Source of the DNA: Thiovulum sp. ES
GTDB lineage: Bacteria; Campylobacterota; Campylobacteria; Campylobacterales; Thiovulaceae
DNA length: 33,338 nt
Direction: 5' to 3'
Assembly (NCBI GenBank): GCA_000276965.1
Contig: AKKQ01000017.1
Span: forward strand, 1-33,338
Shown one piece after another: positions 14,908 through 17,570 of this stretch (position 1 is the stretch's first letter; every line of letters starts with the position of its first letter). The notes below the pieces were generated by a model. That model ran no database searches. It was not told the DNA's origin and was given only the letters and a program-made list of their open reading frames with translations. Position numbers and translations under genes: made by a program.

Positions 14908-16050
14908 TTACCAGTCGGCAAGTTTTCCAATTTCATTTTTTGGAAGTTCAGTTCCATATTCAATTCGAGTTGGTCTTTCAGAAGATTCTAAATTTTCAAA
15001 AAGCCATTTTTGCAACTCTTCTTTGTCAGTTTCATTTTTCAAGATTGCAAACATTTTTAAGCGATCACCATCAAGTCGTAAAACTAAATCTTGTAATAAT
15101 TCACTTCTTAAAATTCGCTCTTTTGTCTCTTCCAAATTGACATTATTTCCTGCAATTTGAATCACAGAATCGAATCGACCAAGAATTTTAAATCTATTTT
15201 CTCCTCTTATTGAATCATAAAACCACTCAATCTGATCAGGAAAAACATCTTCTTCTAAAAAAGGAAGTTGTAAAAAGCCTTCGCTGTTGTCATTTTTCCA
15301 ACCAATTCCAGAAGTCTCTGTTGATCCGTAGATTTCAAAAATATTTTGCAGTCCCATTTGCAACCCTCGTTCTCTAGTTTCAGAAGAGAGTGGAGCAGTA
15401 GAACAGACCGCACTAACACCAAAGGGAAATTTAAAATTAAAGTCAGCAAAAAGTTCTATCAAATATGGTGTCATAACGATGAGGTCGCCCTCTTCTAATG
15501 CAAATTTGAGTCTTGGTGTTGGAATTGGGTCTTTAAATTCACGAGAAACTCCAGCAACTTTTGGAACTAAAATTGCGAAAATAAATCCGTAAATATGATG
15601 TTGTGGAACAAGTGAAATTACTCTTTTTGGCTGAATTTTTTCAACCCAAAATTTCGCCTCTTTCTCTAGTTTTTCCAATTTGTGAGAAGTTCCTTCTGGA
15701 TTTCCAGTTGTTCCTGAAGAGAAAAAAGATAAATTTTCTTGATTTGCTTTTTGAATAATTTGAATCCAGTCGCCAATTTTTCGTTCTGAGAGAAGAAGTT
15801 CTTCTATTCCGCCAGTTTTATGGAGTTCAAAAAATAGATTTGTTCGTGTCGCAACTGTTACGAGTTCAAGGGAATCAAGTCGCAAAATATTTCCATTCAT
15901 TGAGGCATTGTAGCCCCAACTTTTTGTTTTTGCTATTGTCAAATGCTCTTTTCGTAAAAGTGAAATCTCCTTTTGAAGAATCGAGATTAAAACATCGTAA
16001 ATCTCTTTTTCTCCCAAAATATCATTTATAGTCTTTTTACGAAAATCCAA
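14908..16050 (-). CDS. AMP-forming ligase with N-terminal acyl-carrier-like domain; probable p-coumarate activation for PYP
   Basis: 380 residues. Residues ~15-102 look like an acyl carrier protein: a first helix, then LRLDSLELVTVATRTNLFFE with Ser60 in the D-S-L site for phosphopantetheine, and a last helix IGDWIQIIQKA. Residues ~105-380 are an AMP-binding (ANL) enzyme: P-loop SSGTTGNPEG (111-120, Glu for the usual Lys), YGSTET (241-246), GRFD (291-294) and the C-terminal catalytic Lys in PKNEIGKL (Lys376). It is short for this superfamily. The TTG start has AAGGA upstream within the chemoreceptor-PYP gene, which it overlaps by 25 bases. PYP needs p-coumarate activated by such a ligase, so this is the likely enzyme; the substrate is inferred. 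A motif copy lies at 15477-15485. Confidence 0.8.
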   Translation of the reverse strand: MDFRKKTINDILGEKEIYDVLISILQKEISLLRKEHLTIAKTKSWGYNASMNGNILRLDSLELVTVATRTNLFFELHKTGGIEELLLSERKIGDWIQIIQKANQENLSFFSSGTTGNPEGTSHKLEKLEKEAKFWVEKIQPKRVISLVPQHHIYGFIFAILVPKVAGVSREFKDPIPTPRLKFALEEGDLIVMTPYLIELFADFNFKFPFGVSAVCSTAPLSSETRERGLQMGLQNIFEIYGSTETSGIGWKNDNSEGFLQLPFLEEDVFPDQIEWFYDSIRGENRFKILGRFDSVIQIAGNNVNLEETKERILRSELLQDLVLRLDGDRLKMFAILKNETDKEELQKWLFENLESSERPTRIEYGTELPKNEIGKLADW

Positions 16051-17570
16051 TATGTTTTATCCTTATCTGCTTCTTCTTCAGCATTTTTCATCTGAATCTT
16101 AACTTTTGTCGGTGCCATGTTGTAGTCAAATGTATAATCAAACATAACATTAAGGTCATCTTTATTAACACCATCGTTAAATTTACCGTAGAAAACTGGA
16201 GATTTTGTACAAGGAGCGACTTCGTTAAAGAAACTTTTCCCAACAACCTCTCTAGGGTCTCGACCTGTAATATCACCTTCCGCACTGTTGTATTTAACAA
16301 TGTTTCCATCTTTATCAAGTTCAACAACACCAAATGACATATTGTCGAGCTGTTCCTGACTCATTGAGTTCATTGCACCCTCAAGTTCTTTGGGATCAAA
16401 TTTAACAACTTCTAATTTTTTAGCTGTTTTGTTTTTGTCGTATTTTCCATCAATTGCATCAGCGAAAGTTTTTGAGAGTTCAGCAACTTCAGTCGCAATT
16501 GTGTCTGTATCACCAGCAACATCAAGAGTTTCTATTGTGATTTCATAAATTTCGTGCATAGATTTATCAACTTTATTAACTGACTCTTCTACTTTGTGGA
16601 TTTTTGAGTTAATTGCAACAACATCAACATTTAGTGCATCGATTGTTTTATCAACAATTTCTAGCGATTCCATTGTCTTTTCAGCGAGTTTTCTAACCTC
16701 ATCGGCAACAACTGCAAATCCTCTACCGTGGATACCAGCTCTAGCAGCCTCAATTGATGTATTGAGTGAAATAAGTTGTGTCTGATCTGCAATATAGTTG
16801 ATCATATGCACAACCTCTTTAATTTCTCTCGATTTTTTTGCAATCTCATCAGAATCTTCAGCAATTTGATGAACTTCGCCCCGAATATTTTCAACTGATT
16901 TTGTTGTGTGTTGAATTGTTGTTGATTGTTTATTTACAGCTGTACTAAGTTTTGTAACACCTTTATCAAGCGAATCTGCATTTTCTTGGAGAATGTTTCC
17001 ATTTTCAAGTAGATATTTTCTATCATCTACCAAACCTTGAACCATCTCATTAAAATCTCTTGTTACATCATCAAATTTAAATCCGTAATGCACATCCATT
17101 CTGTAATCAAGGTTTGAATCTTTTATCTCTCTAAAAGACTCCATTAAAACTGTCATGTATGAATTGTAGTTACTAATAGCTTCATTGAATGCACTCTTAA
17201 CTGCTTCAATATCTTTAGTATATTTTCCAGTCATATATTTATTAAATTGACCACTTCTTGCAAGTTCTGCAATTTCCACCATTTCCGTGATAAAAGCTTT
17301 GTACTCCTCTTCTCTCCCTTGAATTCTCTCAAGTTCTCGTGTATTGTAGTTTGCTCTGTCAAGAAGTGTTGGCAACTCCTCTTTTGACTGTGTTTGCAGT
17401 GATTTTAATTTCATCTCTGCATAATCAAACTCTCTAATAAGAGACCATTGATAAGCAACGGATAAAATAACACCTAGTGCAAAAAGAGGGTATCCAATAT
17501 ATTGAAACCCAACTATTCCAAGAGCAAAGCCTGTTAAAATTATAAACAATATACCTATCTGTTTAACCAT
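16026..17570 (-). CDS. Chemoreceptor (MCP) fused to a C-terminal photoactive yellow protein domain
   Basis: 514 residues. Two adjacent hydrophobic segments (~5-40) have almost no periplasmic loop; HAMP-like/coiled-coil helices follow (~85-190). An MCP signalling hairpin comes next, with the tip around 260-298 (ISLNTSIEAARAGIHGRGFA, VADEVRKLAEKT). Residues ~391-514 align nearly gap-free with Halorhodospira PYP: EGDITGRDP, VAPCT, YGKF, FDYTFDY and WIFVKRL. The chromophore pocket is intact: Tyr427 (Tyr42), Glu431 (Glu46), Thr435 (Thr50), Arg437 (Arg52), Cys454 (Cys69), Tyr483 (Tyr98) and Met485 (Met100), PYP numbers in brackets. It has one four-residue insertion near the end. This predicts blue-light control of CheA from inside the cell. 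The ATG has AAGGG upstream. Confidence 0.93.
   Translation of the reverse strand: MVKQIGILFIILTGFALGIVGFQYIGYPLFALGVILSVAYQWSLIREFDYAEMKLKSLQTQSKEELPTLLDRANYNTRELERIQGREEEYKAFITEMVEIAELARSGQFNKYMTGKYTKDIEAVKSAFNEAISNYNSYMTVLMESFREIKDSNLDYRMDVHYGFKFDDVTRDFNEMVQGLVDDRKYLLENGNILQENADSLDKGVTKLSTAVNKQSTTIQHTTKSVENIRGEVHQIAEDSDEIAKKSREIKEVVHMINYIADQTQLISLNTSIEAARAGIHGRGFAVVADEVRKLAEKTMESLEIVDKTIDALNVDVVAINSKIHKVEESVNKVDKSMHEIYEITIETLDVAGDTDTIATEVAELSKTFADAIDGKYDKNKTAKKLEVVKFDPKELEGAMNSMSQEQLDNMSFGVVELDKDGNIVKYNSAEGDITGRDPREVVGKSFFNEVAPCTKSPVFYGKFNDGVNKDDLNVMFDYTFDYNMAPTKVKIQMKNAEEEADKDKTYWIFVKRL

Follow-up and report, generated by a model that had tools for sequence, protein, structure and literature searches.

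How does the p-coumaroyl pigment reach its cysteine in photoactive yellow protein (PYP)? For this textbook photoreceptor, the accepted account is that the pigment is loaded from p-coumaroyl-CoA: according to a review, pCL attaches p-coumaric acid (pCA) to CoA, and the p-coumaroyl-CoA then reacts with apo-PYP (PMC12826048). The question is raised anew by a contig of Thiovulum sp. ES (GenBank AKKQ01000017.1), of which positions 1 to 33,338, here called the window, were analyzed. In the window, a ligase gene overlaps a PYP gene, and an earlier sequence-only reading had suggested that an ACP-like domain in the ligase takes up the p-coumaroyl group and delivers it as a tethered thioester.

The ligase gene and its photoreceptor partner

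The pcl-type ligase gene (14908..16050, minus strand) is an intact reading frame of 380 codons with a TTG start at 16050, and its 380-aa product consists of a carrier and an adenylation domain. A Shine-Dalgarno-like AAGGA is located 9 bases 5' of the TTG (16060..16064, minus strand), within the PYP coding sequence. The ORF coordinates give an overlap of exactly 25 bases between the ligase gene and the MCP-PYP gene, the same figure as in the sequence-only reading, and this overlap provides the genetic linkage to PYP by which a Pcl is recognized.

The search against TIGR02372, the model of the 4-coumarate--CoA ligase for PYP activation, revealed a match over profile positions 5-386 of 386, N-terminal region included. 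The score of 261.7 bits was under the curated cut-off of 334.7 bits, though the match was full length. A sample of 298 genomes from the phylum contained a full-length match to this model only in the window genome, which is of Campylobacterales type and comprises 2.08 Mb in 206 contigs. The window ligase shared at most 35% identity with its aligned relatives. No match was obtained when genome contigs were scanned with the single window protein as the query, or when viral contigs were scanned for relatives of the window ligase. By its sequence, the window ligase belongs to Pcl, the lineage of 4-coumarate ligases for PYP activation.

The partner gene (16026..17570, minus strand) encodes an MCP-PYP fusion of 514 aa with PYP at the C-terminus, which is the likely chromophore acceptor. 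Its PYP domain (16029..16412, minus strand) matched TIGR02373 with 161.5-165.9 bits (cut-off 143.05). Alignment with PYPs indicated that the fusion keeps the equivalents of Tyr42, Glu46, Thr50, Arg52, and Cys69, the last being Cys454 (codon 16209..16211, minus strand). This fusion in a Campylobacterota genome is likely a blue-light taxis receptor. MCP-PYP fusions and the rare PYPs of Campylobacterota are already published, and PMC12826048 lists only 12 fusions of this type; a paper on Thiovulum with photoactive yellow protein was not found among the open papers searched.

AcpS is present in one copy in the window genome. An aromatic amino-acid lyase is likewise encoded in a single copy, on another contig (L120:1420-2886, minus strand). 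The best matches of this lyase were pyp-cluster lyases of Idiomarinaceae, which it also resembles in its selectivity region, T-R-F-H; it scored highest on histidine ammonia-lyase models, yet below their cut-off. A role in histidine utilization is disfavored because no urocanase was found in the window genome and the lyase shares its F-H motif with pyp-cluster lyases. The lyase is likely the source of p-coumarate.

Adenylation and N-terminal domains of the ligase

The adenylation domain spans residues 105-380 (14911..15738, minus strand), and both profile and fold comparisons related it to ANL enzymes of the PDB. Its PF00501 match was confined to profile positions 168-329, indicating that the usual N-terminal part of an adenylation domain is absent; the AMP-binding domain is thus shortened, as the sequence-only reading had described. 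The ANL motifs A3, A5, A7, A8, and A10 are present with their catalytic residues. In a motif alignment of 67 sequences, G113, E245, D272, R292, and D294 were invariant, and Lys376, the catalytic lysine of motif A10 (codon 14923..14925, minus strand), was kept in 66. The window ligase has the motif residues that adenylation and thioester formation require, with Glu119 in place of the motif A3 Lys that 40 of the 67 sequences have.

In a tree of the A-domains, which was rooted at the midpoint and included a small outgroup, the window ligase was placed inside the Pcl clade (support 100/99) on a long branch. Three ligases from Desulfovibrionales also fell within this clade (95/91 group), and the ApeH type formed its sister group. 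ApeH, encoded in aryl-polyene clusters, is a short AMP-forming aryl ligase like the window enzyme, and its best NCBIfam model is TIGR02372; however, the match starts only at profile position 98, so that ApeH has a different type of N-terminal region. From in vitro reconstitution, ApeH is reported to adenylate 4-hydroxybenzoate and to load an ACP without a CoA intermediate (PMC8253772), and the window ligase is likened to it by the sister relation. In contrast to the window ligase, ApeH has its ACPs encoded as separate adjoining genes and supplies a polyketide synthase rather than a photoreceptor.

The N-terminal domain comprises residues 10-104 (15739..16023, minus strand). AlphaFold2 modeling of residues 1-107 with 67 relatives yielded a model with a pLDDT of 88.4 and a pTM of 0.79, containing helices at residues 14-33, 60-73, 82-88, and 92-106. 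The sequence-only reading had named structure prediction as the means of judging whether a carrier fold exists, and a carrier fold was predicted. Ser60 (codon 15871..15873, minus strand), the predicted phosphopantetheine attachment site within L-D-S-L-E, opens the second main helix (60-73) of the model, in the position at the beginning of helix II that characterizes an ACP. The best 50 Foldseek matches were ACPs or ACP-containing complexes, mostly with probabilities of 0.93-1.00 and with weak E-values of 0.03 to 0.6. The best VIA matches were carriers, with Z of 10-12 over 72-92 residues, a level below 13 that for helical bundles is not conclusive when taken alone; ApeE from Acinetobacter was among them (Z 10.5), and one designed scaffold at rank 50 was the exception.

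The N-domain of the window ligase alone matched no Pfam family and did not reach the PF00550 gathering score; therefore, its carrier identity is derived from the relatives, the profile, and the fold. PF00550 matched 16 of the 67 N-domains of the family (best 1.1e-4), and the runner-up family matched 6. When the PDB was searched with the N-domain profile, ACPs led the matches (E 0.0014). We further ranked 6,797 ORFs from all loci examined against this profile and counted matches out to E = 5. All 42 non-ligase matches were ACPs or second copies, among them the fatty-acid ACP of the window genome, with serine aligned on serine. This unbiased ranking rules out a chance likeness between the N-domain and ACPs. 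Ser60 was the sole invariant N-domain column in the 67 sequences, whose mean column identity was 26%. These results strongly support the identification of residues 10-104 as an ACP domain, and the two features that the sequence-only reading had pointed out, an ACP-like domain ahead of the AMP-binding part and a D-S-L serine at position 60, are both borne out.

Relatives with and without PYP

Relatives of the window ligase, 80 from 84,980 species genomes and 8 from plasmids, were surveyed. The serine was not selected for by the scan, because the patterns used for scanning were taken from the adenylation domain; the whole protein was used for ranking. Nearly all of the surveyed ligases adjoin a PYP gene, and the carrier serine was found in 84 of 89 rows (relatives and window). 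The rows without it were those of L083, L097, L109, and L111, which belong to the PYP-less Desulfovibrionales, and that of L105, an Idiomarina MAG. In L105, an in-frame stop splits the N-domain of a pcl located beside an intact pyp (L105:3815-4100, plus strand), and D-S-L-E is still readable in frame; the interruption reflects gene decay or an assembly error. The D-S-L serine was present in all 83 intact PYP-adjacent ligases, with the window included and L073 excluded. The architecture had been regarded by the sequence-only reading as special to this gene, but it is common to every intact PYP-adjacent relative examined. L073 (84-1253, plus strand) is a Massilia glaciei ligase at a contig edge that has the carrier serine; no PYP was found in this assembly, and L073 stays an unexplained exception.

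A Halorhodospira-type pyp-pcl-tal operon encodes a Pcl of 394 aa with R-A-D-S-L-D-R-L, and the comparison with Halorhodospira pcl that the sequence-only reading had proposed thus revealed the same D-S-L serine. The PYP of this operon is 99% identical to the H. halophila sequence. The classic, biochemically studied operon type therefore has the carrier too, and an N-domain peculiar to the window genome is ruled out. Pcl of such operons resembles the window ligase in length, architecture, PYP neighbor, and serine, whereas it is described as a CoA ligase, and the window copy is divergent, resides in a Campylobacterota genome, and has an MCP-PYP partner. The loci also contained divergent PYP-like proteins (L035, L036, L037, L039, L065, L079, L110, and others) that adjoin GGDEF/EAL genes and are annotated as phosphonate transporter or PAS, with the pigment cysteine, Tyr, and Glu all kept; misannotation of such proteins has already been reported (PMC9664959).

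The Desulfovibrionales provided a natural control. We analyzed 150 genomes of this order, which contains the Desulfovibrio locus L083, and detected Pcl-type ligases in 30. A real PYP was found in none of these 30 genomes (best score 32.9 bits, TIGR02373 cut-off 143). Twenty-five loci were read, of which 3 had N-regions that were cut, and the carrier serine was present in none of the 22 readable N-regions. Several of these N-regions keep recognizable remnants of the domain, such as G-L-D-A-T-A-L-E and G-L-D-T-T-A-L-E. Of 20 loci examined with their flanks, 16 had stand-alone ligases, and a separate D-S-L ACP gene was located within about 4 kb in all 16. Most of the loci with ACP and ligase contained ketosynthase and chain-length-factor-like genes, as in aryl-polyene-like clusters. 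The ACP of one locus (L159) was recovered by the N-domain profile among the 6,797 ORFs. In the remaining 4 loci, the ligase was part of a fusion of about 1,330 aa in which it is joined to an ammonia-lyase.

Examples of both arrangements were recorded. The aryl-polyene-like clusters L097:361-5909 and L111:11-3459 contain genes for an acyltransferase, ACP, ketosynthase, chain-length-factor-like protein, and Pcl-type ligase. PYP-less fusions of about 1,330 aa were found at L083:3836-7801 (plus strand) and also in L158, L161, L166, and L176; the layout is a Pcl-type ligase (1-400), a middle region (400-780), and an aromatic ammonia-lyase (788-1268), and no ACP gene was seen near these fusions.

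The Desulfovibrionales enzymes thus share with the window ligase an A-domain of the Pcl clade, but differ from it in having a degenerate N-domain without serine, in being accompanied by a separate ACP or fused to an ammonia-lyase, and in lacking PYP. In this single lineage of ligases, the serine of the carrier is thus in cis where PYP is served and in trans where a polyketide-type pathway is served. This correlation is predicted by a carrier-loading ligase and not by a CoA ligase whose additional domain is ornamental. The swap to an ACP in trans in PYP-less relatives points to a carrier route for the PYP-linked ligases, and this natural control is the best support for such a route. The serine losses in Desulfovibrionales may represent one or few evolutionary events, which counts against self-loading.

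Delivery of the p-coumaroyl group

We consider it probable that the window ligase is a self-loading enzyme, in which the Ser60 arm is loaded in cis and the p-coumaroyl group reaches the PYP cysteine with no involvement of CoA. AcpS would attach phosphopantetheine to Ser60 of the N-terminal carrier domain, and tyrosine would be converted to p-coumarate, probably by the aromatic ammonia-lyase whose gene is on another contig of the genome. The adenylation domain would form p-coumaroyl-AMP, from which the acyl group would move to the tethered thiol on the Ser60 arm. The p-coumaroyl thioester would then be handed to the PYP-domain cysteine of the co-translated MCP-PYP, and the loaded MCP-PYP would serve as a blue-light chemoreceptor. 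The modification of Ser60, the loading in cis, and the direct transfer without free CoA are what we infer here, and a route of this kind would fit everything found.

Parts of this scheme have parallels. In A-PCP didomains (PA1221 and EntE-EntB fusions), adenylation and carrier domains reside on one chain and loading occurs in cis, as proposed here, whereas, in a comparison by titles, the carrier is C-terminal, the A-domain is full length, and the chemistry is that of peptides or siderophores. In LipB-type acylation, an acyl-ACP donates its group for the covalent modification of another protein; that reaction uses a separate transferase and a lysine target, in contrast to the cysteine thioester formed on a photoreceptor here. 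We know of no separate transferase for the loading of the PYP chromophore.

The principal alternative is the orthodox route, in which free p-coumaroyl-CoA acylates PYP and the ACP-derived N-domain is a structural stand-in for the missing subdomain that holds the active site together. The N-domain occupies the place of the first subdomain of ANL enzymes, most full-length structural alignments to CoA ligases begin within residues 1-6, the closest solved structures include CoA ligases, and pCL is described in the literature as CoA-forming. Published accounts present the H. halophila enzyme as a p-coumaroyl-CoA ligase and its pCL activity as demonstrated (PMC12826048), and FlxY, a ligase of a flexirubin cluster, formed 4-coumaroyl-CoA in vitro (PMC3992019), suggesting that ligases of this sort may use CoA as an alternative acceptor; both observations count against self-loading. 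However, a structural role leaves unaccounted for both the sole invariance of the attachment serine and its loss exactly where PYP is absent and an ACP in trans is present, and the serine-free degenerate N-domains of Desulfovibrionales indicate that a scaffold does not need the serine. We therefore regard the orthodox route as unlikely, though it is the strongest of the alternatives. Obtaining holo-PYP heterologously in E. coli does not tell the routes apart, because the host contributes phosphopantetheinyl transferases of its own.

Considerably less probable is a variant in which the loaded carrier gives up its acyl group to free CoA or some other acceptor, and the acylation of PYP is a secondary event. 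PYP can be loaded in vitro by diverse activated coumarates, and no sign of contact between the carrier domain and PYP was seen here; on the other hand, the presence of Ser60 tracks that of PYP, and pcl usually lies beside or overlaps pyp, suggesting a dedicated donor. Activation of another aryl acid, such as cinnamate, caffeate, or 4-hydroxybenzoate, is very improbable, because the gene overlaps one for a PYP with conserved pigment-site residues and the lyase of the genome resembles lyases within pyp clusters, even though p-coumarate is an inferred substrate, the sister enzyme ApeH uses 4-hydroxybenzoate, and that lyase, with its unusual F-H selectivity pair, obtains its highest scores, below cut-off, from the histidine ammonia-lyase models.

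The self-loading reading is also weakened by the divergence of the window ligase, seen in its sub-cut-off TIGR02372 score, the lack of a PF00550 match, and Glu119, and by L073, which has the serine in an assembly where PYP was not found. Whether the reading extends to the whole family is evenly balanced in our judgment: free p-coumaroyl-CoA would not be the physiological donor across the PYP family, and every PYP-linked pCL would be a cis-loading aryl-carrier ligase whose phosphopantetheine arm S-acylates the photoreceptor directly. As part of this wider reading, PYP-linked pCL may derive from a ligase of the aryl-polyene type combined with an ACP.

No mention of a carrier in pCL was found in a search of 5.39 million open papers; subscription papers were mostly outside this set, and an earlier description is possible. 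The PYP-linked ligases as a family have the architecture of an adenylation-carrier loading module, a known kind of module that is here put to an unexpected use. The invariant carrier serine, present exactly where PYP is present, implies a carrier-bound route that differs from the textbook one. If true, this would explain how the right cysteine is chosen without the spread of reactive coumaroyl-CoA, and would guide the efficient production of holo-PYP with a co-expressed phosphopantetheinyl transferase. It would also exemplify clearly how a loading module of the polyketide type can be redeployed to modify proteins, and would constitute a carrier-protein route for the attachment of a chromophore to a photoreceptor.
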